The notes under the pieces were generated by a model that had not been told where the DNA came from, searched no databases, and worked only from the letters and a program-made list of their open reading frames with translations. Position numbers and translations under genes: made by a program. 64,000 bases of DNA, taken from contig CAXKVR010000099.1 in assembly GCA_964058845.1 (NCBI GenBank), forward strand, positions 124,001 to 188,000. Reading direction: 5' to 3'. The stretch is from Carex sylvatica (Eukaryota > Streptophyta > Magnoliopsida > Poales > Cyperaceae). Position 1 is the first letter of the stretch. Each line of letters opens with the position of its first letter. Shown here in pieces: positions 15,248 through 55,955 of the stretch.

Positions 15248-15256
15248 CCTCATTTT

Positions 15257-19811: not shown

Positions 19812-19848
<37 letters not shown>

Positions 19849-20253: not shown

Positions 20254-20292
<39 letters not shown>

Positions 20293-29038: not shown

Positions 29039-29200
29039 ATGCTAGTTTCGATGGAGATGTACCGGCATAGAGACATTTTGGTGATGGCTATTATGGTTTC
29101 TTCTTTTCTCTTGCTTATGGGTTCAACCATGGCGAGAATGGACCCACAACCATGGCGAGTTTGCAATAGAGATGGTGTATGTATTCATCCACATCATTAG
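29039..29200 (+). CDS. Small secreted peptide 1, C-x5-C-x-x-P-H-H type, unknown family
   Basis: A 53-residue frame starts at MLVSMEMYRHRDI; ATGs at 29051 and 29057 are alternatives. The first ATG is favoured because the block M-L-x-x-x-x-M-Y-x-H-R-D is shared by all three tandem copies. A hydrophobic signal segment (ILVMAIMVSSFLLLMGS) is followed by a probable cut after Ala in STMAR. The mature tail of about 21 residues ends VCNRDGVCIHPHH, with two Cys spaced C-x5-C, then x-x-Pro-His-His. No described peptide family is recognised; an apoplastic signal or defence peptide is inference. The frame could be non-coding, but three related copies and unlinked relatives with the same layout argue for a gene. 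It lies 1.5 kb after the OSC on the same strand. Confidence 0.65.
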   Translation: MLVSMEMYRHRDILVMAIMVSSFLLLMGSTMARMDPQPWRVCNRDGVCIHPHH

Positions 29201-29391
29201 TAGTATTTGGGGAGCCCATATAATTTTGGTCATTCAAATGTTGGTCTGTAATTTTCTCAGAATTTTACAAGGATAAGGGAAGAAATCAAATTGTGTTAGA
29301 AAGAATTTTCCCTAATACATGGCGTTATTGAGCTAAAGTTGTAGTTCATAAACAATAGTATTATTTTTTACTGATATATATGTTTACATTA

Positions 29392-29846
29392 ATTGTTGCC
29401 CTGTAATTAGTATCATTGTTCATATTACTGTTACCATGCATGGCAGAGCTACCTCCTCTAGCCAAGTTTACAAACCCCGTCGATATGATGCTTGCAATTA
29501 TCCACACATTAATTAGTATGTATATACTTGATTCCAGCGAGATCATTATGTAACTGCTGATGTAGTATTAAGCTTTATGAGGAATTATAAGAGTAATTTC
29601 ATCGAACACCTTGCGGACATACACCAATACTCGAGTAAATGAAGAAATGTGAAAGACACAAAACCCAAAACTCTAAACCCTAAACCCTAAACCTTGAAAA
29701 AAAAAAGCATGAAGAAAAAACACTTTTGTTCAATTGACTTCACCCCTCATATAGAGGCCACGGTTTGCCTTTTAATCAAAAGAAAAAAAAAAAACAGTGG
29801 CGATTTGGAAGATTTCCGCTACTAACCAAATAATTCAATTTGGTCT
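29392..29846. other. Spacer before the LINE fragment, with a short telomere-like motif
   Basis: Apart from the AAACCCTAAACCCTAAACC-type motif at 29673-29693, nothing recognisable is seen. The sequence from about 29790 may be 5' LINE remnant. Confidence 0.4.
29673..29693. repeat. Short interstitial telomere-like motif
   Basis: About three units of CCCTAAA, the plant telomere repeat. It is too short to be a relic telomere and is most likely a telo-box or a chance repair insertion. Confidence 0.5.
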
Positions 29847-31532
29847 TTGGCCATATTTTTGGCTTCACCGTCAACCGTACGTATACACAATTTGACTATT
29901 GCAGTCAAGCAACAGCTGATTCCAAATTCGGTGATTAATGAAATAACTTCTATTATCCGAAGATTTTTCTGGGGCAAAGTGGAGAAGCGGCGATATTTGG
30001 CATATGTCGCTTGGGAAAAAATTACAATGCCGGTAGAGATGGGTGGGCTCGGAGTGCGTGATCTACAAGCAATGAATGAAAGCCTTCTCATGAAATTTCT
30101 GTGGAGATTGGCCGCAGGTTCGGAGGCACAGTGGGTGAAATTAGTAAAAGCTAAGTATTTTCCGAGGAGTGAATTGTGGCATAGCAAAAGAGATTATAAT
30201 TGCACCGGGTTTTGGAAAAGTATGATGCGTCTCAGGAGTGTTCTAGAGCCATGGGTGCAGTGGAATATAGGCAATGGAGAGAGTTGTGGGGCCTTCTCAC
30301 AACCCTGGTTTCAAGGGGCTTTGGAGTCAAAACCGACAGATGAAACTCAGCGGCACTTGGTTGTCAGAGATTTGCTTGATGTCCAAAGTGGAAATTGGGA
30401 TGTAGATCAGCTCTCTCATCTGTTCGGTTATGTGAAGTGCATGGAAATCATTTCAAATATTGATCCTCCTTCGCATGGTGCTTCTGAAGATAAGCTGATT
30501 TTCAAAAAAGGTAGCAATGGCATGCATTCGGTTAAGATGGGATACACACTGTTGAGAAATCCACAGGTGAGTCCGTGCATTGGAACACAAGAACTGTGGG
30601 AAGCTGTTTGGCGTAAGGGAGAAGTGTTACCTAGAATCAGATTGTTTGTTTGGAAATTGCTGCATAAGGCTGTGCCTCTAGCAAAAACCATGCATCGTCG
30701 GTTCCCACATCAAAGCCCGGTGTGTGTGACGTGTGGTAGGGAGAAGGAAGACGCATCTCATCTATTGCATCTATGCCCCTTCTCTAGGGCATGCTTCCTA
30801 GCAGGACCGTTAGGTATGAGAACGGAAGGATTTGGTGGTGAATTTGTGCAAGTGCTACATACAGTTTTGGAAATGCTTGATGACGACCAGTGGCTTCTAT
30901 ATGTAAACTCGGCATGGGCCCTATGGAGATGTAGAAATGATAGAATTTATGAGGGTAAACATCCTGACTTTTCTCAGTTTATGATTTATCTCAATGCTAT
31001 AAATGGGGAATCAAAGATTGCTTCTACACGCAAGTTTTGTGTGATGCCGGGTCGGGCTCAAGGCGAGATCTTAAGTTCAGAGGTGCAAAATGACTATAAT
31101 TGTTTCTTGGATGGGTCATGGGATGAGGGGTGGGCGGGAGGAATTGGAGTTGTTGTGTGGTATAAAGAGGAAATGATTCTATATCAATCCAAGGCAGTAA
31201 AGTGTTGTTGCTCACTTCAGGTGGAGGCCACAGCCCTCAGAGAGTCGATTCTGTTGGTGATTAAACTTGGAATAGCCTCTTGCTCCTTCTTTTCAGATTG
31301 CCCCACATTGGTAAAAGCTGTTTCGAATCCACATCCCCCAGTAGATGCAGAATGGCGTGCGTTCGAGAAAGTGCTAGAAAGTTGGAAGCTGTTACAAGAA
31401 AATCTCTCTTTCTCATGTAATTATATTCAAAGATGTCAGAACGATATGGCCGATAAGTTAGCAAAGATTGGGAGGATAAACAGATGGGATCACTCAGGAT
31501 ATACGTTTCCTTGTTTTAAAAATTTAATGTAG
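29847..31532 (+). pseudogene. LINE (non-LTR retrotransposon) fragment: zf-RVT and RNase H domains
   Basis: One open frame of 561 residues covers only the C-terminal part of a plant L1-type ORF2. Residues about 1-200 are the post-RT region (RRFFWGK, VCWEKI-like AWEKITMP, MGGLGVRDL). Residues about 250-330 form the zf-RVT domain (LWEAVWR, RLFVWKLLHKAVPL, CVTCGREKEDASHLLHLCP). Residues about 410-545 are a plant RNase H with Asp in FLDGSW, Glu in QVEATALRES, Asp in FFSDCPTLVKAV and the final Asp in NDMADKLAK. The endonuclease and the reverse transcriptase YADD core are absent, so it cannot move alone. The open frame suggests either recent insertion or a co-opted RNase H protein. It separates the two tandem copies. 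Confidence 0.88.
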
Positions 31533-31676
31533 CAGGGCAGGGTAGACAATATAGAAAGGGCTTGTGTGATGATTTCATTTTCTGGGATGTAACAACCTAC
31601 GGGTTTCTGATAACAAAATAAAAAATAAAAAATAGAAATAATTTATTTCCAAAGCAGCCTTTCAACAATTTTTTTT

Positions 31677-33238
31677 AGGGAAATTTACCTCCGTGTCACT
31701 CCAAAACTTAAAAATTATCAAATTGCCACCTCAAAACTTAAAATTACTTATTTTCCACCCTAAAATTATCAAAATTATCAAATTAGCACAATATACATCT
31801 AATATACATATTTAATTAAAATTATTATGAAAAATATTGTATAATAAAACGTATTTTCCAAAATACCCTTCAAGAACACATGAAATTTTTTCTCTCTATC
31901 TTTCTCTCTTCCTCTCTTATGCCTCTATCTCTCTTTCTCTCAATCTCTCTTACGCCTCTTTCTCTCTCTCTCTCTCTTTCTCTCTTTCATAGCATAGAAA
32001 GAATGACCAACCTACCTATTAAATAACCTCTAATGTTTTCCGAATCATTGACAACTTGTTTCTGAGAACTTGAAAACAATATATTGTTTAATTAATTAAT
32101 TTAATTGATATTAACTGCATATCTAAATCAGGGCGCAGGTGGTGGGATGGCCACCAATTCAGGTGAAAACCAAGGCATCTGCCACAACTCAGGTGAAAAC
32201 CAAGGACGAGGCCTCTTCTGCGGGCCCCGAGCCGAAGCAGAACTCCTCTAACAGCTGCCCCTATGTCAAGGTCAGCATTGATGGACCCCCCTACCTCCGC
32301 AAAGTCGACTTGAAGCTCTTTAGCGGCTACAAGGAGCTCTCCATTGCACTGGAGAAGATGTTCAGTGACTTCACCAGTTGTCAGATTTTCTTTACTTCTT
32401 TTATTTATTTATTTATTTTTAATTTTGCATCCTTTGAATTAGTTTTAGCATGTTTAAAAAATGAGATTTGTATTATATCCACTGGATGGAATTCTTATTT
32501 CTGTTTTGAGGGGATACATCAAATTAGGTTTAGGATTGTACGTGAGATGGTAATTTTTTGGAGGGTAATGATCTCATTTTTCATTTTGCAAAGTTGTATG
32601 TAATATTTCAACATTTTGTTGGTAATTCATACTTGAGATAACTCCTTAAATTTTGTTGACAGAACCAATCGATGGTATTTTAACAAAATACTGGTAACTA
32701 AAAAGTGTGCAAAGTGATTCACACATGAATGTATGAACCCACTGGTTGAATTCTTTTTTTTTTCGTTAATTTTTTTTTACCTAAGGTTACAAAGCAGTTT
32801 GTATCAGTACTTTAGAATTACATTTTCCTGTTGTTGTGTTGATATGGCCTTAGGCAGAGGAAAATATGAGTCTGTTTCAGAGACACGAACCAAAGACCTG
32901 CTGAATAAGTCAGAGTATATTAGGCGAAGAGAAGGATTCGGGGTTAGACAAAATATTACTGGAAAGAGAGAAAGAGGGATAGAGGCATTAGAGAGGAAGA
33001 GAGAAAGATAGAGAGGCGAAATTTCATCTGTTCTTGAAAGGTATTTTGGGAAATACGAAAATACGTTTTGTCATACAATATTTTTCATAATAATTTTAAT
33101 TAAATATGTATATTAGATGTATGTTGTGGCAATTTGATAATTTTAATGATTTTAGGGTTGCAAATAAATAATTTTAAATTTTGGAGTGGCAATTTGATAA
33201 TTTTCAAGTTTTAGAGTGGCACGGAGGTAAATTTTCCT
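31677..33238. mobile_element. Pack-type TIR transposon (Mutator- or hAT-like) carrying an Aux/IAA exon
   Basis: Long terminal inverted repeats of about 270 bp (31677-31945 and 32955-33238) start AGGGAAATTTACCTCCGTG and end in the complement. Inner TIR parts are CT/GA-rich. The flanks are runs of seven to eight T, and the undisturbed homologous site at 27355-27368 is a 14-T run, so insertion into poly-T is clear but the exact target duplication is hidden. No transposase is present. The interior carries a GC-rich Aux/IAA exon (32132-32376). Long TIRs plus a captured host exon fit a Pack-MULE best. Confidence 0.88.
32132..32376 (+). pseudogene. Captured Aux/IAA exon 2 (degron and start of PB1 domain)
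   Basis: Bounded by a CAG acceptor and a phase-1 donor, this matches the canonical second exon of Aux/IAA genes. It begins [10 protein letters not shown], the domain II degron core recognised by TIR1/AFB auxin receptors. It then runs through a Ser/Lys linker into domain III ([19 protein letters not shown], then [16 protein letters not shown]). The EAR repression domain I and domain IV are absent. The linker holds a small duplication, QVKTK twice. Coding DNA is much richer in G and C than its surroundings, which marks it as foreign to the element. The open frame (82 residues) has no stop. Whether it is transcribed is unknown; a truncated product or small RNAs against donor genes are possible. 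Confidence 0.9.
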
Positions 33239-34227
33239 TTTTTTATCATACTGCTGATAAGATCTTACAGTTAAGCAAATTTTATGTGTACAAGAAATCA
33301 ACTTTTATTAGGACCTTGTTATTATTTTTATTTTATGCATTCCGTGTTTTCCATTCAGGATTGGGATTTGGGAAGTTTGCTAGGTACCGCTGTTCTCGAT
33401 TTAATTGCTGTGTTTTAGACAGGATATTAATATTGTTGGAGATATGTAATAAAAATTGTCTTTTCTTTTTGTGCAAATGTTGTCGGCCCTGTTTTGTTTT
33501 TTGCAATTAGTAACAACTAATAGCATTCATATGAAGGATTAGTATGAAAATACATCTGATCTGTTTGTGAAAACACGGATCCATGATGTTCTATATTTTA
33601 GTACAGTTTTCAATTTAGAATCTAGATTGATGAAGGATTTTCGAATGATTTAATTTTATTTAACAATCGTATTGTCATAAGAAAAATTCTACGTTATCCA
33701 TATATTTATTGTGTACGTTGTCTCGGATTGTGTTGGATTGGATCTTTGATTGAGCAAACTTGACTAGGTCTCATTTGGGCTGAGTTAAATATACTATCCG
33801 TGGAGATCTAGTGGTTGCTAGCAACGTTGTTTTAATATATATTAGCCGAGTAAATTTTTGTTTAAATGGGCAATGTATAGTTGTTCCTGACAGCACTTAC
33901 AATGGGAAGCGTAAATAAAAGTGGGGAAAGACATAGTATAATTGTTATTTTCAAATTGAAATTGGACTCGGTTTTGCATGTGCACAAGTCGGGAATTGCC
34001 GCTTTAAATGCAGATACAGTATGTATACAATTTAATTAGGCAAAGGGGGTACGGTGGGAATCTAGCAATCATATTTCTCACCAAACGTCCGATGCACATC
34101 AGATCAAAATCGGTTTGATGTCTTCTTGGAACCGTCCTATTTGCAAACACTTAATCTACACGAACTTTGAAGTGGCATGCGCAAATTTTGTATTGAATCA
34201 GATGATTTCAAACGGACACCGGACTGT

Positions 34228-34365
34228 CACAACAACAAGGTAGGCACCTTTCGCGAGAGAAAAAGTGCATTTATGATGGTACTCCGTCGCTAAAAGTATC
34301 GTCACTAATAGAAAAAGCACGTTTATGACAGTATTCCGTCGCGAAAAACCTACCTTCTTGTTGTG
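34228..34365. mobile_element. 138-bp CACTA-type MITE
   Basis: The ends are CACAACAACAAGGTAGG and CCTACCTTCTTGTTGTG, flanked by TGT on both sides (34225-34227 and 34366-34368). The sequence is absent from the homologous position in tandem copy 1 (near 28405), so it inserted after the duplication. An internal repeat, TTCCGTCGC, supports a palindromic structure. Confidence 0.88.
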
Positions 34366-35038
34366 TGTGGTCTGATGATTAATTATTAGACACCCTCCAT
34401 TCAAGGGCTCCCCCTTACATTGAACTTTTAATTATATATTTTAATTAAACGTGACATTTTTTTTTTCCAATTTTCGAGATAGTATGAGAATTTCATAATT
34501 TGCAAAAAAAAATTAAAAAGAAACCACATTTATAATTTTCACGTTGACAAAAATTATGAATTCTGGACTGTTAATTGGTAATTCCACATTGGGCTTCCAA
34601 TTTTAATTTGTAGTCCAACGTACCAATTTTTAATTAAATTTAAAAATAGAGATACTCTAAGTTATTTTTATTTTATTTTTGTATAACAGATATTAACAAA
34701 GTATATATTCTTCTACTGAACTATGAGGTGTGTCACTTTTAAAACAGATCAAGAGCATCATATCATTATCCGCTTTAATATTGCCTTTTGACTTTTGCCT
34801 TTTGACTTTAAAACAGATCAGGACTAAATTTTGACTTTTGACTTCTGTGTAAACTTTCCAATTACGCAAGGACTTGTGCAAAATTAATTATCTGTATAAA
34901 AAAGTGCATTCCAATCTTGACTCTTGACAAACAGGGGCACACTCCAATAACGCCCAACTGCCACTACAAATAGCTTTGAGATTCAAAATTTCAAAACATT
35001 CACATCCTCATAAAAAATTGCAAGTCATATACATACAC

Positions 35039-35170
35039 ATGCTAGTTTCGATGGAGATGTACCGGCATAGAGACATTTTGGTGATGGCTATTATGGTTTC
35101 TTCTTTTCTCTTGCTTATGGGTTCAACCATGGCGAGAATGAACCCATATTTGGTATGTAGTTTTCTCTGA
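35039..35170 (+). pseudogene. Small secreted peptide 2, copy with the cysteine core deleted
   Basis: It is identical to peptide 1 from MLVSMEMYRHRDI through the signal segment and MARM. A deletion of roughly 85-90 bp then fuses the frame to former 3' UTR, giving NPYLVCSFL and a stop. Both cysteines of the motif and the Pro-His-His tail are lost. The promoter and leader are nearly identical to copy 1. It would make a secreted 43-residue product without the family signature, so I treat it as a decayed duplicate. Confidence 0.7.
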
Positions 35171-35289
35171 ATTTTACAAGGATAAGGGAATCAAATTGTG
35201 CTGGAAAGAATTTTCCCTAATACATGGTGTTATTGAGCTAAATTTGTAGTTCATATGTAACAGTATTCTTCTTGACTGATATATCTATT

Positions 35290-35430
35290 TACGAGTAGAA
35301 CTAGGGTGTTCTTAAGTTCATCAAACTCTTTTGTGAACTCAACTGTAAAATCTATCATATTGAATTTAAACAACGAATTCAAACAGTTGAAAACCCATCT
35401 ACCTAATGAAGGATGCGTCTACATGCAATA
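35290..35430. mobile_element. Half fold-back element (core family 2)
   Basis: It begins GAGTAGAACTAGGGTGTTC and matches the left arm of the elements at 15257 and 18149. The right arm is absent. Confidence 0.6.
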
Positions 35431-35449
35431 GTTATAATTTATAATTAAC

Positions 35450-36180: not shown

Positions 36181-36592
36181 GTAGGGCTGCTAATGGGCAG
36201 ATTTCAGTCCATGATCGACTCGTATCAAGATTAAAATGATAAATGATCAGTCCATGTTCAGTTCGGTAATGGGCGGGTTGTTGTCCATGTTCAGTCCATC
36301 CAACTCCGTTCATTACAAAGCCCAGTTCAAATTGGTCCCGTTCAAAATGAAATGTTTGGACAATCAATGGACTGTCCATTGGACAACCAACGAACAAACA
36401 AAGTATATAACGCAAATTGTGCAGAAGTATATAACGCAAGAACAAGAACCATCTCATATTAAAAAACAGAACCAACAGATTAATTGACTCAAGAGTATCA
36501 AACAGAACCATCTCATATTCTCATATTAAAAAATAATCAACTACATACTATAATTTAAATCTTACCAAGAACAAGAACACACCACCAAGTGC

Positions 36593-36593
<1 letters not shown>

Positions 36594-36630
<37 letters not shown>
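36594..36630. repeat. Poly-A tract of 37 bases
   Basis: An uninterrupted adenine run inside the hAT region. It could be a microsatellite or the tail of a lost retroposon. Confidence 0.9.
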
Positions 36631-36631
<1 letters not shown>

Positions 36632-38655: not shown

Positions 38656-40592
38656 TTAAGGTCCCCACATGAATGGACAGAATTGGTCCAAGTCGAAGCC
38701 ACCGTCAACGCAATTAAACCAATCTTTTGAACAAATAAGAGCTTGGATGGTTTCAGGATTCATTGAGTTGCGCGAGTGATCTGTCAATCGACCCGCTGCA
38801 CTGAATGTTGACTCCGATGCAACGGTTGAGACTTGAACTGCCAAAAAGTCTCTTGCCATCTTTGCTAACGTCGGATACAAATCCGAGTTTCATTTCCACC
38901 ATTGCAGAATATCAAAATTTTCTTCATCAAGCTCTACCACAGCTTCTTCCAAGTAGTTGTCCAACTCGGATCTCCTTGGCCGTATATGACGTTTTTGCAT
39001 TTTAAATTGGAATAATTTCATATCAAACTTTTTTTTCCCCAAGAAACTACTTTCCACTTGTGGGAACCCGCTACTTGACGCCCGATCTACATTGCAAATG
39101 CTCGCATAGTCATCATAGCATTTTTTAAGTGATAAGCACACTTCTTCCAATCTTTTTTTGTACTCATCAGTATCAACTCCATATGCAACTCCAAAAAAAA
39201 TTGGATGTCTTCTAACTTTGCCCGAGGATAAAAAACACAAGCTAATATGAGTATCAAGTTTAGGGTTTTCCAATATTTGTTAAACTTTGGTAGCATCTTT
39301 TCTACTAAGTTTTGCAAAGTTTGATTGAAATTAATATAATCTTCCAACAACATAGCACGGATGGTCCACACCTCTTTCATATACAAGTGTGAGCATGATC
39401 ACCTCATAGTAGAGAAAGTTTTCGTAGCATAAAAGAATGCCTCTAAAATTTTTGCTAACTTTTCCGCCTCCTTCCACTCATCCGAACTAGGAACTTCCAA
39501 TAAATCGTTTTCTCCAAACCTTAACAAGGCATGTTTGTATTTTAAAGCTTCTTTAACCATCTCATATGTTGAATTCTACCTAGTTGGGCAATCTAGAGTC
39601 ATACCCTTCTTTTCTCCTAATTGAAGTTCTTTTAAGATATCATTAAAAAATTGGAGTCCTCTTGCCACTCGAAACTATTCGCCGCAGTATCTCTCTAATT
39701 TTCTCCAAAGCCTCTGAAATAATATTCATTACATCTTGCACCATCATATTTAAGACATAGGCCGCACATCTCATGTGCATGTGTTTCCCTCCAAAAATTC
39801 TATTATACCCAAATTTCTCCTCAATACTTCCTATCGCATTATCATTCATTGTAGAATTATCTAGTGTAATTGTGAATATCTTACCATTCAACTTCCATTG
39901 AACTAGAATTTTCTCAATTAAACTTGCAACCGCTTGACCCGAATGCGAGTAAAATATTTGTCTGAAACCAATAATCTTCTTTTTAAAGTTGAAGTTCTTG
40001 TCGATATAGTGTGTCGTCAAGCACAAATATCCCAAAATTGACACTTGATGTCCAAATATCGACCGTGAAAGACACGCATGAATCTAACTCTTCAAATTCC
40101 TTCAATGATACCGCCAACCCCTTATTATAGACCTCCACACAGTCATTTCTTAAGGTTTGTTGCCCAATGGCTTTGTATTCGGGTCTAAGTGATCTCATCG
40201 TGGCTTTTCAAAATCGGCTCTCAATGACGGAAAATGGTATCTCGGCATCAATAAAAAGGAGTATCATGAGGCTACGGATCACTTCAGGATTAAATTTGTA
40301 ATTGGATGTACCAAACATATCACCATCTTTATCCAATCCAAACTTTTCCCTTTTTTCTTCACTGATTTTTTCACAAGCATCTTTGATATGACGACGTAAT
40401 TGTGTTGTTCCCAACTTAGGACAAATAGCAAACTCCATCTTACAATGCCTACACACGACTTTTGTTTCCAGATTATCAAAATGATTCCACACTTCTTATT
40501 TCCTTTGTGAACTAGTTCGCCTTACTACGATCGGACCACTCTCGGACTGAACACTAGCATCGGGTAAGACATTTTGACTCTCGAATTGTGAC
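38656..40592 (-). pseudogene. hAT transposase (BED finger, RNase H-like core, dimerisation domain), broken
   Basis: The start at 40592 (MSQFESQNVLPD) leads within about 30 codons to a stop, just before VWNHFDNLETKVVCRHCKM and the BED zinc-finger pattern C-x2-C...H-x4-C. Further pieces read in different frames: LRPEYKAIGQQT and FTVDIWTSS around 40000-40200, TLDNSTMNDNAIG near 39850, and a C-terminal dimerisation block with VSTVASESTFSAAGR and NPETIQALICSKDW at 38680-38850. Frameshifts at about 39640, 39280 and 38880 and several stops make it non-functional. The order is that of plant Ac/Tag1-like zinc-finger BED transposases. Confidence 0.88.
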
Positions 40593-42654: not shown

Positions 42655-42663
42655 TATATATAA
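42655..42663 (+). promoter_or_regulatory. TATA box of peptide gene 4
   Basis: TATATATAA lies 102 bases before the start codon, preceded by CCATCTC. It is conserved at 54268-54276 upstream of peptide gene 5. Confidence 0.55.
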
Positions 42664-42756
42664 TTTGTTTTGTTTTGTCTTTCTTCTCTCACGGATATAA
42701 CTTCACAATAAAACTTAATTAAGCTTCTAGTTTCCATCAGCAATTACATACTTGCA

Positions 42757-42933
42757 ATGAAGGATTTGAGGAGGGAAATTCTCTTGATCATGGTCATAAT
42801 TGTCTCGATTTTCTTGTCTATGTTGTTAGGAACATGCTTAGGAGCATCGATTCCTGCCAGTCCTGTTTGCAATCCTAAGACTGGCGAGTGTCGCAATCCT
42901 AAGACTGGCAAGTGCCACAATGATTCACAATAA
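42757..42933 (+). CDS. Small secreted peptide 4, C-x6-C type with repeated core
   Basis: A 58-residue product starts MKDLRREILLIMVIIVSIF. The hydrophobic segment ends near GTCLGA, giving a mature part of about 28 residues. It holds the unit NPKTGECR followed by NPKTGKCH, a 24-base in-frame tandem duplication, so three Cys occur where relatives have two: C-x6-C-x-N-P then a further x-x-x-x-C. The last residues (NDSQ) and the stop come from a copied piece of the gene's own 5' leader (CACAATAAAACTTAATTAAG), replacing the N-P-H-H-D end seen in peptide 5. A strong TATA box and leader are present. Function unknown. It lies about 30 bp from the edge of the PKS-B inverted arm. Confidence 0.68.
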   Translation: MKDLRREILLIMVIIVSIFLSMLLGTCLGASIPASPVCNPKTGECRNPKTGKCHNDSQ

Positions 42934-42962
42934 AACTTAATTAAGCTCCTTTTTTCCATCAA

Positions 42963-45900
42963 ATTAACTCAAAAATGGTGTTTATTCAGGAATAGCGCAC
43001 GGGCCAGTATTATTTGTGCTTTGAGATTTGTGTCATGTTAAAAGAACAATCCTGAACCGTTCGTTTCAATTTGATTGAGTAAGTACTGGGGTGATCCGAA
43101 TTCGTACGGAACTTTTTTTTTTTTCGCTTCTTCCTGATCTTTGATTTCTCCGCTTCGGTAGAGTGTTTGAAACATTGCAATTTTTTCATCTATTTTCCAA
43201 ATTCATTTTTTTCCTTTATATAATGATAGTTAATTATTAACCACACTATGACAACCGACACTATAAGAGCTAGAACATTCAACATTATTTCACAAATAGG
43301 AGAAATGCAAGAAAGTGCGAAACACTTAATTTCAATAAAACCCAACTGAGTTGGATAAATCCAACACGAGGAAACAATTAAGCTTTAAAAAAAAAAATCT
43401 AAAGGTGTCATGCACTAAGATTCATTTTATCCATTTTCCAATTATCTATTACAACATTTTCCTCATTCTCCTAACGCATCTCCAACCTTCAAAAGCTACA
43501 TTTACTTTTGGTTATTATTTTTATTATTACTGTTGCAATGTAAACTGTCTTTTGCAAATTACAGAGAAAGGTTAAATGGGAACCGAACGCAGAGCAATAG
43601 CCTCAATTGACAGTCCAGGCCCAAATCCAAGGAGCATCCCAAATTGAAGCCCATCGCCTGTTGTAACCTTTCCTTCATTAATTGATTTCTTTCTCATCTC
43701 ATTCATTATAAAGAGTACTGTTGGACTTGACAAGTTGCCAACATCAGTTAGTACCTTCCTTGTCATGTTGAACTTGTCTTTCTCCAATTCAAGTTTTTCT
43801 TCAACCATCTTTAAAATTTTAGGGCCTCCTGGATGAACAATCCAAAATAGAGAATTTAAATCGGTAATACCTAATGGCTTTAATACTTCCTCAACACAAC
43901 CTCGGATGTTTTCCGAGATGTGCTTTGGTATTGAAGGTGCCAAAGTGACGAGGTTTCCGACTTCTCTTGGTACCATTGCAAGAGCATCCATCGTATTCAA
44001 GATCATGGTTTCCCTTGTAGAGATGAGCTCATAGAGTGGACGCTCAACTTCTAAATCGGGATCTGCACCGACTATCACGGCAGCAGATCCATCACCAAAT
44101 AAAACTTGAGAAACGAGATCATCGGGGTGAGATTCAGAAGGGCCACGGAACCCATGAATAATGTATTCAGAGGTGACCACAAGAACACGTGCACCGCGAT
44201 TGTTCTCAGCGAGATCCTTTGCTATACGGAGTGAAGTTGCTCCGCCGTGACATCCTTGGTAGTAAAGCATGACGCGCCTAACATTTGTAGGGAGACCGAG
44301 TAGATGCACGAGCCGAACATCAGCTCCTGGACATTCAGCACCGCTATTTGTACAAAATATGAGGTGGGTAATCTTGGATACAGGCTGGCCCCATTCCCCG
44401 ATGGCCACTGTTGCTGCCTCTTTTGCAAGCTTTGCTACTTCCTCAGAGACAATCTCCCATCGGGCATCTAGAGATGGTGCTGAATGGTCGGCAATATTCG
44501 GATGCTTCTTTAATATTTCTCCATCATTTGCCATCAAGCCCATATAACGCTGCTTTATAGTTGAGCTTTTACCTACAATTAATTATTCAATAAATCAAGA
44601 TATGATTTAACATGGAACTTAAAAGTGTTTTTTCATTGTGGTCTCAGGCCTAAAATGTTCTGACTTCTGAGCATCAGATTTGAAGTACTTAAGAAAGAAT
44701 TGTTTTCATTTACTAATTAGCACGATATATAATATGATATGTAATACTCAATTACATCGCATTTTGATAGTAATAAATGAACAAAGGTCAGTACTAATTA
44801 ATTTGCTTCCCTAACATTTTTGGGTGGATTAAGGTAGTGAACTGGATATAATAATCAAATTGAATATATCTAGAAAAGAAAAATAGGAGAAATGAACTTA
44901 CATATCCTGGTCATCTTCTCCTTTAGCTCTGTAAGATGCTCACTATTGGTAAGCCGGAAGTACATGTCGGGGTATGTATCATGAGGAACACAGACGGGTG
45001 GGAGTGCTGTGCCGATTGCTAGAACAGTAGCAAGGCCTTTTGACCTCTGTGATTGCACAAACTGCTCCATTTAATTAGTTGGGTACTACAGAGAAAATAG
45101 GTTGATATATATGTATAAAGGAACAGTTTGGAGATGTGCATAATCCTACTGAGAATGCAGCCTTAAATAGTGAAAGATCCAAAGTAGTAGAATGTTCTAC
45201 TTCATTGGTAACAATTTGATTTCGTCTTGTACAAAGCTTTTTTAATTAAATTATCAATGAAGAAAGATTACGCTACAGGCAATTAATCTTTATTCACATA
45301 CACACATTTTGTATTCTTAAACAGAATATACTCTGTTTGGTTGAAAGTGCTGTCTTGCAGTTAAACGATAGACTTGATATTAACTGATATCCATTATATT
45401 CTCAATTATAAATTATATAGAATAACTTAAAAGTTGCTAATGAAGCAACTCCTTGAGGTTCCCTTTTTTTTTAAATAGTTGCTCAGCTTTCAATGTTTTT
45501 TTGACACTCTTCGTGTTATTTATAAATATCAGTAACCTGTGAAATACGACTGCTTTAACAGAAGAAATAATAAACCTAGTGACTTGAAGAAATCAAAGCT
45601 TACTTGATTTTCTTCTCCTTTTTTTTAGTTTGGCAATTTCTATAAGCTTTTATTAGTTGAAAATTTTCAGGTAATCTTCCCTTCATTGTATTGTATACCG
45701 ATAAATTTTCATTAATTGTATCAACGTATATTCTCTCCTCTTAATTTTTTTTATTTCCTCCGAATTTTCTGTGATACGGTTTCTGCGATATATTGTACAG
45801 CGGACAAAAGTTAAATTAATTGTTTCATGGGTAGAAATTAGAAAATTACCTGCACTTTTTTACAAACATGTGTAAATGGATTTTTTTTTTTTAAATAGAA

Positions 45901-48189: not shown

Positions 48190-48310
48190 GTGCCTATTCG
48201 GGATGGAGCAGGGGCAGTATTATTTATGCTTTGAGATTCGTGCCAGGTTAAAAGAATAATCCTCAACCGTCCGTTTCAATTGTACTCGGTCAGGTAAGCT
48301 CAGGGGATGT
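48190..48310. repeat. Dispersed repeat, family R
   Basis: It contains GGTGCCTATTCGGGA and GCAGTATTATTTATGCTTTG and leads into CCGTCCGTTTCAATT, matching 42963-43110 in the same orientation. Confidence 0.65.
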
Positions 48311-48347
48311 GACTTCGCAGACCATCTCCTTTCCCTTTATTTCGTCT

Positions 48348-49640
48348 CGCACGCAAGTTGTTTGATGATATGCTTGAGCTAACCTACAACCTGATTACTG
48401 CTTACTACCGCTGTCAACAACGGCGGCTCCTCTCTCTACTCAGTTACCTTCAGTCAATACTGCTGAGGCCCTGCCAAACTCGAGTTACATGGAACTGTGC
48501 ACGTTCAGTCCATTGCTTATACAAGACTCTAGATCAAATGCCTCTTAAAGCCATGGAAACCTCTGATGGCACAATGATCAGTCACATTTTACCCCTTTAA
48601 CTGTATATATATCTGGCACTGGCAGCTTGGGAGACTTCTCTGTGCACATATGTAATGCGTATATAAGGTGTTTGATGCTATGCCTAAGACTGCCTTTTTC
48701 ACTCTAGTGTTAAGTTGTACTTCCGCTCTTATCACCATAATTAATTACTCGATGATCTGCCCTTAAAAACTAAAATGATTGTTCAAATGCTTTTCAATCA
48801 AATTTATTACAAAAAATCAAACCTACCTAGTTAACAGCATATACTCTATCATGACTCCTGAGAACCCATAGACACTTATCATTGATTACTTGGAATATAT
48901 AGATATTTGTGTTGGAATGGAATTGCTACCATGGTTAAGTCAAGGCATAACACACCTAAAGAAACGGTCCATAGATGGTTATTTATTTGCTCTCAGCCTC
49001 ACTTTGTGAATCATGATAGCACTTCTTGGTGCGGAATCACATTGCTCTAGAAGTGCTGACAAGCACATTACTAGACCATGTTATATAGCCTTATATTTCT
49101 AGTGTGAGGAAAATAGAGGTTAATCCAAAAGGCCCATGGGTTTATGAGAGTATTTTCTTAAATTGATTAAAATTTTAGCTCTACATATGTTCCAAAGAAG
49201 TTACTTTATACGTCGGTTCCAAATCAGTTTACACTAAGCTAAGAATTTTGTATATTTCTTTTAAGATCCTAACAAGTTCGGTTGACCTCGAGTTAACACA
49301 TTGCCTTTTGAACTAGTTGAATACCCTCTAAATTATGGAAACCAATTTTATATAGGTCATGTTCTTACAGTTTGAGATGCTTATTTATTACATATGCATA
49401 TAGAATAAGGGAGAAGATTAAGATCAGTTTGTACAGCATTCTTAGCATTTTCACGCCCGTCACATCCAAATGTAGAGGTACTCTCCGATCTCCATTAAAG
49501 ATCAGCTAATCTATGGTTTGATGAGGCCCATGGAATGGTAGATGTACTTATATATTCTCCCAAATGACACCTTTAGCTTGTCATACTGTTAGAAGAGAAG
49601 CTCCCTTGCAATTTGGGCAAATGTTGTATTGAATTGCAGC
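48348..49640. repeat. Second inverted duplication, left copy
   Basis: It matches the reverse complement of about 62160-63549, with landmarks GTTTGATGAT, GCTTGAGCTAACCTACAACC and AGAAGAGAAGCTCCCTTGCA. Divergence is much higher than in the PKS arms (many substitutions and indels), so it is older. The two copies flank peptides 5 and 6 and the Copia element. Confidence 0.8.
48358..48600 (+). CDS. Hypothetical 80-residue frame conserved in the second inverted duplication
   Basis: The frame starts MFDDMLELTYNL, continues through SILLRPCQTR and TWNCAR, and ends HILPL. The partner on the minus strand at 63301-63537 has the same start and stop and similar sequence. The two differ by two separate one-codon indels that keep the frame. 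No signal peptide, domain or known family is recognised. It may be a gene fragment or part of a repeat that happens to stay open. Its status as a gene is doubtful. Confidence 0.25.
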   Translation: MFDDMLELTYNLITAYYRCQQRRLLSLLSYLQSILLRPCQTRVTWNCARSVHCLYKTLDQMPLKAMETSDGTMISHILPL

Positions 49641-51146
49641 AAATAGGCTTATGGCAAGGTGGCCCTTACTCCTTTGCTTGTTATATGTAGAAGAAATTTC
49701 TAATTACCATATACCAAGTGCTGCCAAGGAGAACAGCTTAATCGAATATTTTTCTTTTTCTTCGATCACTGCGAAGAAGCAATGGACACCATCACAGGCC
49801 ATATACACTGACAAGAAGAATTTAAGAACTTACCAAATTTGATCCACAATCTAAATGATAGAAAATTCATCTATGACCTTAATTTTGTACCTTCTTTTGT
49901 CAAATATTTTGGCACCAGGATTCCCTCTTTTCAAACTCGTAGTGTACCCAAGCTCATGAACCCACAAATTTTCTATTTCTTATTTGTTAAAGTGTGTGTA
50001 CTTGTTTTAAAAAAAATGTTATAGGCTTATAGTGGAGGGGTTATCCAATCAGCTGTTCTTAATTTGTTACAAACGGCCAGAATTACAAATTGCATCTATC
50101 TCACAAGCTTTCTATCTGTCAAGTTTAGAAAATTGATATAAATTTGTCATTTCCATAGCCACACTGAATTTAATTGTGCACTTCTATTAGAAAATAAACT
50201 TAAAGGACATAGCCTTGAAATTCTATCAACTGTTCAATACTGGTCCTATAAGTGAAGTAGCTTATTGCAGAAGTTGAAATTTTAGTTAGTCAAGTGTAGG
50301 ATTGAGTATTTCAGCATTGACATTGTAATTGTTCTCTCTAAGAACCATATATATATTTTTAGTTTTTAAATTATGCTTTCTGCTGTGCAGTTTTGCAATA
50401 ATCCTATTCTTGGCAATCTTTTAACTGAAGAGAATCAGAAGGTACTCATAAGACCTAGTACTACTATGATCACCTAACACTGCAAGACATGTTCCCATTA
50501 TTTCTTTCTTTATATTACTCTACTGACAAACTTTTATGAATAACTAATTTCAAAGGGTTGACAGATTGGCCCCACACGGCAGCTCCATTGCATAGACCCG
50601 CTGGTGCTCAAGAACTCTTTGACTACCAAGCTTGGTAAAACAACAACATGTTGCTCTAGCTAGTCTCTGTTTTTGTTTGGGAATATTAATCGTATAGGAA
50701 TTTTGTTTTTTTTTTTTGTGTTCGGACTGTTAACTATTTTGTAAAGAGAATACGATATGATATTGTAATTGGTATACATGAAATTTGTTTCCTTCAATCT
50801 TGAAATTATTACAAGTATAATTTAGGTTTTGTTTGGTCTGTACATAAAGTAATTGTTTAGAATTTTTTTTGTTTCAGACTTATGAATCCAAAATTTATAA
50901 CAAATTGTTACGTACGTACTACTCCTACATTAAGGGTTTTACATAATTAAGAAAAAAAACTAAGGGGGCGTAAAGCAAAATTGCAGAAATAAATTAGCTC
51001 CTGTTAAATTTGCAGACAATAGGAAATCTTGATCCGCCATGTTATAGATCACAGATCTACACTTTTTGGTATAAAAACCTGATAGAGAGAGAATGTGGTG
51101 ACCCTTGATTTTCCGTGGCAATGAGAATGTAACTATACAATTTTTA
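49641..51146. other. Intergenic stretch with possible exon remnants
   Basis: Two exon-like pieces with CAG acceptors and GT donors occur near 50391-50440 and 50560-50636, but they do not join to a recognisable protein. The rest shows nothing supported. Confidence 0.3.
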
Positions 51147-52827
51147 CCGACATTTTTATTTTTACCCAATTAAAAAATTATTTTAATAATAATAACCAAG
51201 ATTTAGAAATAATTTTAAAAATACCCAAACCGTGGAATTTTTCCACGGTCCCAAGTTTTTTTTTTTTTTTACAAAACAAAAATTTGTATTTCTTTTTTAT
51301 TTTTTTTTATGAAAATATTAGAAATGTTGGATATATTTCTTTGAAAATAGATGAAATACAATACAATTTGATTTATTAGAAAGACTGTAACAAATAACCC
51401 GATTAATATTTTTCAGGCCGGATTTTTCACGGCTGTAAGAAAAATTAAAATATTTCATTATGTGTTATTATAAAAAAATAAAAATGCATGGATTCTGAGT
51501 TATTGATCCCGTTCAAAAGTCACTTCTAGGTAATATAAAAATTATTGTGATCCTTCTAGTACATTTAATTTATAAAAAGTTGTATCTATTTTGAGAATTC
51601 TTTTTAAATAACAATCATTAAATAACTTAAAGTTTCTATTTTTTTCTAAAATAGATACAACTTTTTATAAATTAAATGTACTAGAAGGATCACAATAATT
51701 TCTATATTACCTAGAAGTGACTTTTGAACTGGGATCAATAACTCAGAATCCATGCATTTTTTTTTACAATAACACATAATGAAATATATTAATTTTTCTT
51801 ACAGCTGCGAAAAATTCGGCTTGAAAAATATTGATCGGGTTATTTGTTACAGTCTTTCTAATAAATCAAATTGTATTGTATTCCATCTATTTTCAAAAAA
51901 AATATTCAACATTTCTAATATTTCAATACAAAAAAAAAATTATGTTTTGATAAAAAAAAACGGTTGTTGAATTCATTGAAGTCGGTAACTGATTTTGATT
52001 TTTTTTTTTTAACAAAACAGAATTTTTTATTTTTTATTTTTTTGTATTGAAATATTAGAAATGTTGAATATATTTATTTGAAAATAGATGGAATACAATA
52101 CAATTTAATTTATTAGAAATACTGTAACAAATAACCCTATCAATATTTTTCAAGCCGAATTTTTCGCGTCTGTAAGAAAAATTAATATATTTTATTATGT
52201 ATTATTGTAAAAAAATGAAAATGCATGCATTCTGAGTTATTGATTCCGGTTCAAAAGTCACTTCTATGTAATATAGAAATTATTGTGATCCTTCTAGTAC
52301 ATTTAATTTATAAAAAATTGTATCTATTTTAAAAAAAAATAAAAAATTTAAGTTATTTAATGATTGTTATTCAAAAAGAATTCTCAAAATAGAAACAATT
52401 TTTTATAAATTAGATGTACTAGAAGGATCACAATAATTTATATATTACCTAGAAGTGACTTTTGAACTGGGATCAATAACTCAGAATCCATGCATTTTTA
52501 TTTTTTTACAATAACACATAATGAAATATATTAATTTTTCTTACGGCCGCGAAAAATTCAGCCTGAAAAATATTGATCGGGTTATTTGTTACAGTCTTTC
52601 TAATAAATCAAATTGTATTGTATTCCATCTATTTTCAAAGAAATATATCCAACATTTCTAATATTTTCATAAAATAAAATAAAATAAAAATTTATGTTTT
52701 GTAAAAAAAAAAAAAAAACTTGGAACCGTGTAATTTTTTCACGGTTTGGGTATTTTTAAAATTATTTCTAAACCTTGGTTTTTATTATTAAAATAATTTT
52801 TTAATTGGGTAAAAATAAAAATGTCGG
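51147..52827. mobile_element. Compound fold-back element with four alternating arms
   Basis: The outer inverted ends are CCGACATTTTTATTTTTACC and its complement near 52808-52827, each followed by a CCGTGGAATTTTTCCACGG-like palindrome. Inside, a block of about 330 bp with landmarks GTGATCCTTCTAGTACATTT and TCAAAAGTCACTTCTA occurs four times in alternating orientation (about 51300-51625, 51640-51950, 52030-52350 and 52375-52680). The arrangement is a tandem dimer of a fold-back unit within one pair of ends. No transposase is present. Short Asn/Lys/Ile-rich frames in it are not genes. Confidence 0.82.
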
Positions 52828-54102
52828 ATTTTTCTGAGTAGCATTAATTATTTTAAGCCCGTTCTACAACAAAAGGCGCTTGCAACGTGGTTAGCAGCAT
52901 ATTTCTCGCAACATAAAGTTCAATTAAAAAGTTAAAAAATGACCCAACAATAAATTACTAGATAAAACGATTCATTTACCTTCCAGTTGTTTATTTGGGT
53001 AGATCGAACGGCACAAAAGGCGTGCTGTGTTGCCCATTGTGGCCCATTAGCTGATCAGACGATTCATCCCGTTCGTCCGATGTGGTCCAGTAACTCAACT
53101 TGTGTGTTTAGATCTGACCGTCCTATCATTGTTCCGATCAATACGATCCGAGATGAAATGCAGAGTCTCTTTCATAATCGTGCAAGAGCAGATCGGACAG
53201 TCTGAATCCAAACACAAAATTTAAGTTACTTTCGGGCTTCTCAATCAGCTGGGGCGTGGGCCCCACCACGTGAGGCTGATAGGTTTTCTTGGTTGGTCGG
53301 CTGCGAGCCTGCGACAAGTTGAAATGCTTGTGAATTTACAGTTTATTGATTTAACAATTTTTACCCGTTATACATATGTTTCCACAGATCGCGCTTTTGA
53401 AAACTTAAGGAATGATAAAAACAATCTGTATTGTCTATTCATGATCTGTACGCATCTTGACGATAAATGAACGTCTCGGATCACTTCATAACCAAGGCAT
53501 GATGGAGGGACAAGTATTAGCTAATATTATATATATACTTAGTATCACACTGTCCGTTATTATATGTTAAGATAAGAAATTGAGCATCTTATTTTAATTA
53601 GGGATGTTATTTAACAGAGCATTTTTTGGGGACTCAGGGCGTTGTTAATTTACTGTTTAGTTTTTTTGCAACATATTGTTTGATTGCAACAAATTTTAAA
53701 TCGATCACAATTAAATTACTGATATCAAATGATGGACTATAATAAGTCTATAATATGGAGATTTTACCACAATTGTAACTATATGAAATAAATAAATAAA
53801 AAATATCCTATGAATAGGTGCAAGTTATAATAATCTCAATTCTGTTGTACATCTTCTATCAAAAGAAAATTTCCCTATAGGTGCATGACTATTTTACAGT
53901 TTAGTTTTTGGCAACATTTTTTTTTATAATAATAAAATTCAAATCGTTGGATGGAACTATTATTTTTCTCGATATTAACTGCATGAATAATTTGGTGCGA
54001 TCTACAAACTTGTAAAAACAAAATTATATTTTTTAAAATTAACGCAAATAATAAACAAGTGATACTTAATTTAAGAACCAAAGTACAATATTTTAAAGTC
54101 TT
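52828..54102. other. Intergenic stretch, no gene recognised
   Basis: A locally more GC-rich patch at 52985-53290 has a 72-residue open frame with no recognised domain. The remainder is AT-rich with nothing supported. Confidence 0.45.
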
Positions 54103-54267
54103 AAATTGTTCATACAATCCTCGATGCAGATCGAACGGTTTGGATCCGATTTTCAATAAAATTTGTCCAAAACCAAATTCTTTTCCCAAGTACATGCGAC
54201 CCAGTATGCTAGTGTTGTCCTTACTAAAATAAGTTATTCACAGATTAAAAATTTTGACAACCATCTC

Positions 54268-54276
54268 TATATATAA
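54268..54276 (+). promoter_or_regulatory. TATA box of peptide gene 5
   Basis: TATATATAA lies 102 bases upstream of the ATG, the same spacing as in peptide gene 4. Confidence 0.55.
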
Positions 54277-54369
54277 TTAGTTTTGTTTTGTCTTTCTTCT
54301 CTCACGGATATAACTTCACAATAAAACTTAATTAAGCTTCTAGTTTCCATCAGCAATTACATACTTGCA

Positions 54370-54525
54370 ATGAAGGATTTGAGGAGGGAAATTCTCTTGA
54401 TCATGGTCATAATAGTCTCCATTTTCTTGTCTATGTTGTTAGGAACATGCTTAGGAGCACCGGTTCCTGCCAGCCTTGTTTGCAATCCTAAGACTGGCGA
54501 GGGCCACAATCCACACCATGATTAA
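54370..54525 (+). CDS. Small secreted peptide 5, N-P-H-H-D ending, second Cys replaced by Gly
   Basis: A 51-residue product starts MKDLRREILLIMVIIVSIF with the same signal segment as peptide 4. The mature part is about 21 residues and ends VCNPKTGEGHNPHHD. Its end shows the original relation of this pair to peptides 1 and 3 (Pro-His-His), but the second Cys of the signature is Gly (TGT to GGC), which would prevent a C-x6-C disulfide. It is either a diverging paralogue or an early pseudogene; promoter and frame are otherwise sound. Function unknown. Confidence 0.6.
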   Translation: MKDLRREILLIMVIIVSIFLSMLLGTCLGAPVPASLVCNPKTGEGHNPHHD

Positions 54526-55654
54526 CAGTGTCGGTATAGATGGTCAATTTGATCGGTGGTTGCTCTTCAAAAAGGTGCCATTTATTGTATTATTGTCTTT
54601 TCTTTTCTTTTTATCTATTCTGTATTTCTGTATGAATGAGTTCTTGCTGCTCATGGTCGATGTCTTATTACATTATCAAGTTTGAAGGATGGATAAATGA
54701 TCTTTAAAATTGTATTTTGGTTACCATTATTATTATTTTTATTTTTTTGAGAAAAAAATGTGGATCATGTCCACATTTAATTTCATTAAGATAGTTACAA
54801 AAGTTTTGTGACAGGATTACAAGAGTTAAAATAATACTCGATACATTTGAGCAATTAAAGTGAACGAAAAACATAATAGAAATGAAATAAATAAAGAGTC
54901 GAAAGTTTCAAAAATCCAAACTAAATAAATCAGAAATTTAGCTAAATGCCAGTATTGTCATCCTCTATGTGCCTGCTTCCTTCCCCCATCTTCACTGATC
55001 ACTGTTGCCTTGATTTCTTCTCTGTACCGTATGCCTTTCTGTACCAGTCCTGGTACCAGTTGCATAGTTTGTAGCAGTTGAGATGGCTTGCTGTACCAAT
55101 CCTGTTACCGTTATTATTTTTCTCCTCTTTGCTACAAGCTATAGTTGAGAGAGTAAATAATTCTTCATTACACTTTATGCATTATAGATGATTAGTATTA
55201 ATTTAAAAATGTAAAGAAATAAATAAATCCAAAATGACCTTGTATGTATATATTAACTGATCGATTTCAATTTTGTGTTGTACTTTCACGCAAAGGCAAT
55301 ATTGGTTTGTTTTATAATAGCCCACTAACTCCTGTTATAATTAAGACCCCCCCAAAAAAAAAAAAAAGAAGAAGAGGATTTTGGTCCTTTTAAGTTAATA
55401 TAAAGTAGGTTGCGATTCTAATGTTGTTTTTTTATGGGCTACCTTTGGTCTGATTTCCCTAGAAGGCCCTAGTAAATACGTGGAGAATTTCTGGGTCTTT
55501 CAGCACAAGCCACTGTCATATATCGGTACCTTCCAAAATCTCATTTAAACTTTGTTCACTTTTCAAAGTCTTGATCTTTTATTCTTTAAGTCCTGGTACT
55601 CAATCGGTCTTCACACGGCATCGGAAGATATACACATTCACTTGCAATTAATAA
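54526..55654. other. Intergenic stretch, no gene recognised
   Basis: It contains a repeated CTGTACCAGTCCTGGTACC-like patch at 55025-55115 and AT-rich filler. No supported gene is seen. Confidence 0.45.
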
Positions 55655-55710
55655 AAAGCTTATACAAGCATCAATTTTACAGAAAGCTTATACAAGCATC
55701 AATTTTACAG
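55655..55710 (+). repeat. Perfect 28-bp tandem repeat in the peptide 6 leader
   Basis: The 28-base unit starting AAAGCTTATACAAGCATC occurs twice without mismatch, ending 20 bases before the start codon at 55731. Confidence 0.9.
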
Positions 55711-55730
55711 AGTATCTAACAATTAACAAA

Positions 55731-55955
55731 ATGAAGAGAGAGATGCAAAACCCGCTCAGTGTACTTCCTATTGTCATCCTCCTTTTCTTTTCAACCGCAC
55801 CAACAAGCTCGGTCGCACGAGGACCCATTCAGTGGATCTCTCCACCCGATCACTGCTACTCAAAAGTGGAGGTTTGTCCACCGCCAGCTACCCCTCAACT
55901 TGGAGAAACTACCAGCACTTCTGATCCACCAGATCAAGCAATTGATCAACCTTAG
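55731..55955 (+). CDS. Small secreted peptide 6, C-x6-C-x-x-P type with Pro/Thr-rich tail
   Basis: A 74-residue product starts MKREMQNPLSVLPIVILLFF. The hydrophobic segment is followed by S-S-V-A-R, matching the S-T-M-A-R and S-S-M-A-R cleavage region of peptides 1 and 3. The mature part carries HCYSKVEVCPPP (C-x6-C-x-x-P, the spacing of peptide 4) and then an acidic, Pro/Thr/Ser-rich tail of about 25 residues. The ATG at 55743 is a weaker alternative start. AATAAA lies at 56147. It is the most diverged family member seen and lacks the Pro-His-His end. Grouping it with the others is inference from spacing and the cleavage motif. Function unknown. Confidence 0.62.
   Translation: MKREMQNPLSVLPIVILLFFSTAPTSSVARGPIQWISPPDHCYSKVEVCPPPATPQLGETTSTSDPPDQAIDQP

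Follow-up and report, generated by a model that had tools for sequence, protein, structure and literature searches.

Background

The described systems closest to the locus studied here are SCOOP, CTNIP (a family also called SCREW) and inceptin. The PROSCOOP precursors of Brassicaceae are, in the part of the source available, 72-117 amino acid residues long, encoded by two or three exons and devoid of cysteine, and their tandem clusters contain vestiges of transposable elements (PMC6382344). For CTNIP, the accessible text describes an active C-terminal segment of 23 residues and two conserved Cys residues, 9-11 residues apart, that are needed for activity (PMC9191895). CTNIP peptides are perceived by HSL3. 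Inceptin derives, in the excerpts available, from the gamma subunit of the chloroplast ATP synthase, as a fragment of 11-13 residues that is freed in the insect gut (PMC9718524, PMC6770897). Its Asp-3 and C-terminal Ala are reported there to be essential (PMC6770897), and Phaseoloid legumes are the only plants for which a response to it is reported (PMC9718524). Certain plants use its loop to sense herbivory.

In the present study, we examined a 64,000-nucleotide stretch of DNA from Carex sylvatica (the window), in which a sequence-only reading had pointed to six small ORFs (P1-P6), together with the whole 301,224-bp contig (C99) that contains it. All six ORFs are present on the plus strand at the starts given by that reading. 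Like the PROSCOOPs, as far as the available text describes them, they belong to short secreted-looking precursors with a conserved C-terminal motif, arranged in a cluster and apparently lineage-specific (PMC6382344). However, the precursors found here have 43-79 residues, an apparently single ORF and a two-Cys loop, and the presence of Cys in all 11 ORFs of the set rules out membership in the Cys-free SCOOP family on that description (PMC6382344). The likeness to CTNIP lies in the short secreted precursor with two Cys residues in the C-terminal part, seen here in nine of the ten open ORFs. The surrounding sequence differs, and the Cys spacing of 5 or 6, against the 9-11 given in the accessible text, rules out membership in CTNIP/SCREW as well (PMC9191895).

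Methods

Predicted signal peptides were called by hydrophobicity only, and the mature parts were cut by the analyst. For the chance control, 40 sequences as long as the contig were generated from a first-order Markov model. Promoters were tested in two ways: on seven paralogue groups, with the lower value of each duplicate pair and two patterns by two lengths, and on nine genes, with four patterns by three lengths and with P2 and P5 left out. The queries for the protein database were P1-P6, A/B/D/E and P0001; C was left out.

Results and discussion

Extent and common design of the ORFs

The set proved larger than the window's six ORFs (Table 1). Five further ORFs (A-E; example cores ICNPITKQCSGTNPPHA and ICDPITKKCRHTNPPHS) lie on C99 22-39 kb upstream of the window, and C99:85-180 kb holds ten open ORFs and P2 as a tandem cluster of small secreted-looking precursors. 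Their common design is a single complete-looking ORF that begins with a hydrophobic leader. By inspection, nine of the ten open ORFs have C-x5/6-C, P5 having one Cys, and in seven of the ten the stop codon lies at most two residues from a Pro-His-His, Pro-Pro-His or Pro-Pro-Asn end. Inspection also agreed with the sequence-only reading on C-x5-C in P1 and P3 and C-x6-C in P4 and P6, the Pro at the third position past the second Cys of these four, S-x-[MV]-A-R in P1, P3 and P6, and Pro-His-His in P1, P3 and P5. C-x-x-P, proposed as the shared motif, holds for P1, P3, P4, P6, A and D but not for B and E, which carry C-x4-P-P-H.

Table 1. Features located in the window (window positions)
Feature	Position	Strand	Description
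P1 upstream region	28831..29038	+	TTGAC cores at -208, -201 and -115; TATA-like TACAAATA at -74
P1	29039..29200	+	53 residues, appears whole; leader, then mature ...WRVCNRDGVCIHPHH (C-x5-C)
P2	35039..35170	+	Truncated copy of P1, mature part deleted; 98% repeat D5
P3	35995..36156	+	53 residues, appears whole; ...KVCTPDGVCHEPHH (C-x5-C)
P4	42757..42933	+	58 residues; VCNPKTGECRNPKTGKCHNDSQ; 24-bp internal repeat, altered C-terminus
Copy of P4's own 5'UTR (42702-42746, 89%)	42924..42966	+	Spans the last codons and stop of P4
P5	54370..54525	+	51 residues, copy of the P4 region (repeat D6, 97%); VCNPKTGEGHNPHHD
P6	55731..55955	+	74 residues; ...DHCYSKVEVCPPPATPQ... (C-x6-C)

C-x5/6-C-x-x-P after a hydrophobic segment was found in 6 of the 159 C99 ORFs of 35-100 residues with a hydrophobic N-terminal segment (P1, P3, P4 and P6 in the window, A and D outside it), against 0.175 on average and at most one in the Markov control sequences. 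The two-Cys motif is beyond chance for the set; the control rules out chance ORFs for the whole set, not for each member singly. A screen of the contig for C-x4..7-C gave 23 ORFs, of which A, B, C, D, E, P1, P3, P4 and P6 were kept and 14 were dropped, among them several frames made of simple repeats (for example YICICIY). Other sequences dropped as candidates were C99:103501-103656 (CMDGKLECRKP) and C99:197988-198137 (CHPHHTLCQRP), both without a hydrophobic leader, and C99:80881 (45 residues, secreted-looking), with one Cys.

Gene loss and rearrangement are evident within the window. The P2 region is 98.2% identical to the P1 region over 326 bp; since 3 bp (35147-35149) stand in place of 94 bp of P1 (29147-29240), P2 has no mature peptide. 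The 3' end of P4 is rearranged, and the 5'UTR copy there adjoins the boundary (42959) of an inverted duplicate with a polyketide synthase gene. P5 has Gly instead of the second Cys. Only P1, P3 and P6 look whole in the window. A leader relic (C99:224692-224817, minus strand) and an orphan promoter (C99:104257-104482) were also observed on the contig.

Relationships among the ORFs and database searches

When members were used as queries against their own genome, every match fell on C99. P1 is homologous by tblastn to P3 (6.7e-14), P5 (0.001) and P4 (0.003). Homology is shown within A/D, within B/E and within P1-P5. A profile of the A/B/D/E mature parts placed P4 top among the other ORFs, but with E=0.83, and P5, P6, P3 and P1 at ranks 208, 421, 532 and 1452; the reverse profile search from the P side did not recover A-E. 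Common descent of A-E with P1-P5 may be suggested across this weak bridge.

In tblastn of P6 against the contig, the best non-self match had E=0.32 and lay at an unrelated place. P6 is tied to the other members by motif only and is a putative member of the family. Because about 0.04 motif-bearing ORFs are expected by chance per 64 kb, the reality of P6 rests mainly on P0001, a near-orthologue of 77 residues with 89% identity. The family of short, secreted-looking two-Cys peptides claimed from the window is supported as a set, enlarged by A-E; P2 as a peptide gene and P6 as a demonstrable homologue are not supported.

None of the 11 peptides, nor P0001, scored above the curated cut-off in Pfam-A, where the matches below it (best E 0.018) fell largely on the hydrophobic leaders. 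None of ten peptides reached the cut-off in NCBIfam, and PDB gave no credibly related chain (best E 1.3). The protein database yielded one match among 30 candidates for P1-P6, none among 26 for A/B/D/E and one among 3 for P6 with P0001; the near-orthologue of P6 is the sole relative found with these queries. No such family was found in the literature searched, in which part of the results were mostly on other subjects. The view that the peptides belong to no named family agrees with these searches.

Promoters, divergence of A and D, and proposed function

TTGAC (W-box) cores are enriched within 300 bp upstream of the ORFs (14 observed vs 4.2 expected in seven paralogue groups, p=0.0004), and every seven-group test gave p <=0.035. 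The enrichment weakens with length (500 bp, p=0.027 for seven groups; 1000 bp, p=0.055 for TTGAC in nine genes). The P1 upstream region is common to P2 and P3, the P6 promoter has no W-box core, and the 150 bp upstream of C are part of a repeat present elsewhere on the contig.

Divergence between A and D is concentrated in the mature part. Codons 1-39 (leader and propeptide) differ at 2 of 117 nucleotides and codons 40-65 (mature part) at 25 of 78 (p=1.3e-9 vs codons 1-39). We do not claim positive selection for this pair, as local replacement seems to explain the 18 differences in the 36 nucleotides of codons 40-51 just as well as point substitution.

The ORFs appear to combine a short precursor, a predicted signal peptide and a conserved C-terminal motif, by which plant small secreted peptides and phytocytokines are generally recognized. 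Such peptides are also marked by elicitor-induced expression and a receptor-dependent response, for which the W-box enrichment would be a promoter proxy. We give about even credence to the explanation that local duplication produced a family of genes for small secreted peptides, apparently confined to one lineage, whose mode of action is like that of clustered phytocytokines. Under the control of W-box-rich promoters, the genes would be transcribed in a WRKY-dependent, stress-inducible manner, each giving a precursor with a predicted N-terminal signal peptide. After secretion and cleavage, about 18-28 residues from the C-terminus would be left as the peptide, A and D also shedding a propeptide. 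A small loop would form through a disulfide between the two Cys residues; the Pro/His-type end behind it is, in most members, also where the protein stops, and proline may be hydroxylated. A receptor on the cell surface of the same plant would then perceive the peptide.

It is possible, though unlikely, that the products are instead secreted antimicrobial or anti-herbivore peptides that act directly, the mature part diversifying against enemies rather than serving as a ligand of a plant receptor. Defence effectors are an equally good fit for the clustering, the W-box-rich promoters and the divergence of the A/D mature part next to flanks that are conserved. However, the mature parts are short, Pro-rich and hydrophilic (GRAVY -0.65 to -1.52), nearly neutral (net charge -4 to +2) and, in most, provided with two Cys residues, whereas antimicrobial peptides are typically cationic and many of those from plants have four or more Cys residues. 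None of the computed features separates a signalling from an antimicrobial or metal-binding role; the low net charge together with the W-box-rich promoters makes us lean towards an inducible signal as the role of the candidate peptides.

Gene callers easily overlook secreted precursors as short as these, and many plant receptor kinases have no known ligand. The cluster offers concrete and cheap candidates, as peptides of about 20 residues can be synthesised and applied. A and D, alike in leader and propeptide and different in the mature part, are a natural pair in which to ask whether ligands diverge because of recognition. If the peptides are active, the locus would set peptides with a Cys loop beside the SCOOPs, which lack cysteine.

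Constraint and possible decay

It may also be that most of the present ORFs are non-functional copies in decay, which arose when one or two ancestral peptide genes were amplified with the surrounding repeats. The damage to P2, P4 and P5, the leader relic, the orphan promoter and the repeat upstream of C are in keeping with decay, as is the pair P1/P3, in which no constraint is visible because dN (0.222) is close to dS (0.186). We nevertheless consider decay improbable as a general explanation. In the last 17 codons of B/E, 8.0 changes at 11.0 synonymous sites stand against 6.0 at 40.0 nonsynonymous sites (Fisher p=0.0005); these mature parts are under purifying selection. A/D has no coding indel despite 1-, 6- and 49-bp gaps in the flanks, and P6 has kept its high identity to P0001. 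In the alignments of P1/P3 and of B/E, indels within the coding part come in multiples of three, and those in the flanks have other lengths.

The sequence-only reading had also held that leaders diverge more than mature cores. This fails for P4/P5 (no nonsynonymous change in the leader, six in the mature part) and for P1/P3 (dN 0.203 in the leader, 0.261 in the mature part), and fits only B/E, outside the window.

The inceptin-like loop of P1 and P3

Slightly less probable still than decay is a wider reading, in which the peptides would be endogenous Cys-loop ligands in an arms race. Promoter, leader and propeptide would stay near-constant while loop and tail are replaced or diversified, as in A/D; P1 and P3 would have converged on the inceptin loop, and the cluster would supply the rapidly evolving ligands of a receptor.

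P1 and P3 (VCNRDGVCI and VCTPDGVCH) have the C-x5-C spacing of the inceptin disulfide loop and share [IV]-C-x-x-[DN]-G-V-C with inceptin (ICDINGVCVDA), a pattern found in 2 of 7,137 contig ORFs, both of them these paralogues. It is very doubtful that they are endogenous mimics of this loop acting on an inceptin-receptor-like protein, as the pattern was picked after the match had been seen and represents one evolutionary event, and the response to inceptin is reported, in the excerpts available, only in Phaseoloid legumes (PMC9718524). Position 3 is Asn in P1 and Thr in P3, and Pro stands at the Ala position in both; the absence of the Asp-3 and C-terminal Ala described as essential in the accessible text (PMC6770897) rules out membership, and the resemblance is kept. 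Moreover, P1 and P3 are encoded by small genes of their own, in contrast to a fragment of the ATP synthase gamma subunit; they gave no Pfam match to that family, and PF00231 (gamma subunit) had no match in the part of the source genome searched. Least probable of all are extracellular metal-binding (Cys/His) peptides: P1 and P3 have two Cys and three His residues each and C has four His, but there is a single His in each of A, B and D, the D tail ends in Asn, and the two-Cys spacing would better fit a disulfide in the oxidising apoplast.

Methods

ORFs of 35–100 aa with a hydrophobic N-terminal segment were listed across the whole Carex sylvatica contig (C99), including the sequence beyond the window, and 40 first-order Markov sequences served as the chance control. 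The window corresponds to C99:124001-188000. In the promoter count, seven paralogue groups were used with the lower value for each duplicate pair, and the expectation was taken from random contig segments. tblastn across the contig was run with low-complexity filtering off. The genome searched comprised 64.0 Mb in 950 contigs, an incomplete part.

Results and discussion

The set of small secreted-looking peptide genes in a birth-and-death cluster is real, and apparently undescribed so far. The six plus-strand ORFs of the window (P1–P6) are present as the sequence-only reading described them. On the whole contig, 159 ORFs have a hydrophobic N-terminus (Markov mean 115). After the hydrophobic segment, C-x5/6-C occurs in 19 ORFs, some of them simple-repeat frames (Markov mean 3.6, maximum 8), and C-x5/6-C-x-x-P in six (mean 0.175, maximum 1). 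New among these six are A and D, both outside the window; as they are paralogues, they amount to one independent find there. When P2 is excluded, nine of the ten open ORFs among P1–P6 and A–E (Table) contain C-x5/6-C, the exception being P5, and in seven the stop lies no more than two residues from a Pro-His-His, Pro-Pro-His or Pro-Pro-Asn (exceptions P4, P6, and C). A secreted-looking 45-aa ORF with one Cys (MLKKDFLYLLLLVVFIILILLSEICNAVPLAAEGGDIKRYEFYVM; C99:80881-81015, outside the window) was not placed in the family.

Table. Peptide ORFs outside the window and other features on the contig
Feature	Location	Strand	Basis	Remarks
A	C99:85389-85583	-	C-x5/6-C-x-x-P scan	...NVCRLYPRNCNGPNPPH
B	C99:91641-91769	-	looser spacing, C-x4..7-C	...GICNPITKQCSGTNPPHA
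C	C99:94752-94988	-	looser spacing, C-x4..7-C	...NCPGDCDPFNGCCHHTHPPS...
D	C99:100747-100941	+	C-x5/6-C-x-x-P scan	...DDCYPYPRSCNGPKPPN
E	C99:102115-102261	-	looser spacing, C-x4..7-C	...IICDPITKKCRHTNPPHS
Type III polyketide synthase (chalcone/stilbene synthase family) duplicate	window 373-3163 and 42959-45752		Pfam on copy 43572-44582	inverted, ~40 kb apart, about 99%
Closely packed short repeats, direct and inverted, MITE-like	window 12856-20660			ATTAGGATCGGTTGTT type
Triterpene (oxidosqualene) cyclase gene fragments	window 22494-24131		SQHop_cyclase_N, E 5.5e-15	second piece below cut-off
Non-LTR retroelement remnant	window 29826-31532		zf-RVT + RVT_3 domains	568-codon ORF, between P1 and P2
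hAT transposase dimerisation, weak	window 38890-39276		18.5 bits, cut-off 21.4	below cut-off

Within the set, {A,D} (77% identity across the whole precursor), {B,E} (49% over B residues 7-43) and {P1,P2,P3,P4,P5} are, judged by their sequences, coherent groups. This grading follows from tblastn, which linked B to A (0.005), B and E to C (0.010 and 0.013), and P1 to P5 and P4 (0.001 and 0.003), and from profiles of the mature part, the C-terminal peptide. A is probably related to B/E and C. A common origin bridging A–E with P1–P5 is plausible but weak: E-P4 (0.064), B-P4 (0.33) and B-P5 (0.46) score below some low-complexity or chance matches, and when 7,137 ORFs were ranked with the A/B/D/E profile, P4 came directly behind the profile's own members, yet at E=0.83 (C ranked 13, P5 208, P6 421, P3 532, and P1 1452). 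The P1/P3/P4/P5 profile did not recover A–E (D ranked 553, B 876, and C 925; A and E were unlisted). P6 is tied to the other members by motif and position only. Genome searches with members of the set gave matches confined to C99; since the ATP synthase gamma family (PF00231) had no match in the 64.0 Mb, this restriction is valid for the searched part. Further traces on the contig are a P4-like leader relic (C99:224692-224817, minus strand, 81%) and, near A–E, a P3-like promoter without a gene (C99:104257-104482, 94%).

The best evidence here for a translated, useful mature part is the constraint on B/E. Within the final 17 codons of this pair, 11.0 synonymous sites carry 8.0 changes and 40.0 nonsynonymous sites carry 6.0 (p=0.0005 by Fisher's test on rounded counts; p=0.012 for the final 22 codons); the leaders have dN 0.61 and dS 0.67. 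The proposal that leaders diverge more than mature cores holds for B/E only, and fails for the window pairs: in P4/P5 the leader protein is unchanged and the mature part has six nonsynonymous changes. For P1/P3, dN is 0.222 and dS 0.186. Between A and D, 2 of 117 nt differ in codons 1-39 and 25 of 78 in codons 40-65 (p=1.3e-9; 21.2 nonsynonymous and 3.8 synonymous changes), and the neighbouring UTRs are nearly identical again, gaps aside. Decay of several copies is real: P2 has lost its mature part, Gly replaces the second Cys in P5, and P4 has a 24-bp internal repeat. The last codons and stop of P4 are contained in 42924-42966, which duplicates the gene's 5'UTR (42702-42746) and adjoins the boundary (42959) of the inverted duplicate that holds the polyketide synthase gene.

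No peptide exceeded the cut-off in Pfam (0/11) or NCBIfam (0/10), and the best PDB match (E=1.3) was to an unrelated transporter. Profiles of P1–P6 and A/B/D/E against 5.8 billion proteins found solely P0001, a 77-aa near-orthologue of P6. No such family was named in the literature searched, which consisted of abstract openings, mostly outside subscription journals. Among known secreted-peptide families, CTNIPs have Cys 9–11 apart (excerpt of PMC9191895), and PROSCOOPs are Cys-free, encoded by genes of two or three exons that are clustered with transposon vestiges (excerpt of PMC6382344). P1 and P3 share the loop pattern of inceptin (2 of 7,137 ORFs) but lack its Asp-3 and Ala; this likeness counts as a single event and may be coincidental. 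The set is an apparently new family within an already well-known type of peptide.

Upstream of the ORFs, TTGAC cores are enriched within 300 bp (14 versus 4.2 expected, p=0.0004; GC-matched p=0.00025) and within 500 bp (p=0.027); P6 has none. TATA-like elements were matched in P1–P5, A, C, and D, and the search gave no match for B, E, and P6. The 150 bp upstream of C match a repeat recurring in the window (e.g. 16899-17045, 90.5%), so its TATA-like element belongs to the repeat. The precursor would run from leader through propeptide (A/D) to a loop peptide at the C-terminus, which has a Pro/His-type end. Beyond the level of ORFs and promoters we infer every step: the genes are probably induced through WRKY factors, and the loop peptide is probably sensed outside the cell. 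The main rival to such sensing is that these are directly acting defence peptides.

The ATTAGGATCGGTTGTT-type repeat also makes up the upstream region of C. The hAT-like match adjoins other minus-strand ORFs, and a third similar polyketide synthase ORF lies further along the contig (C99:194870-195877).
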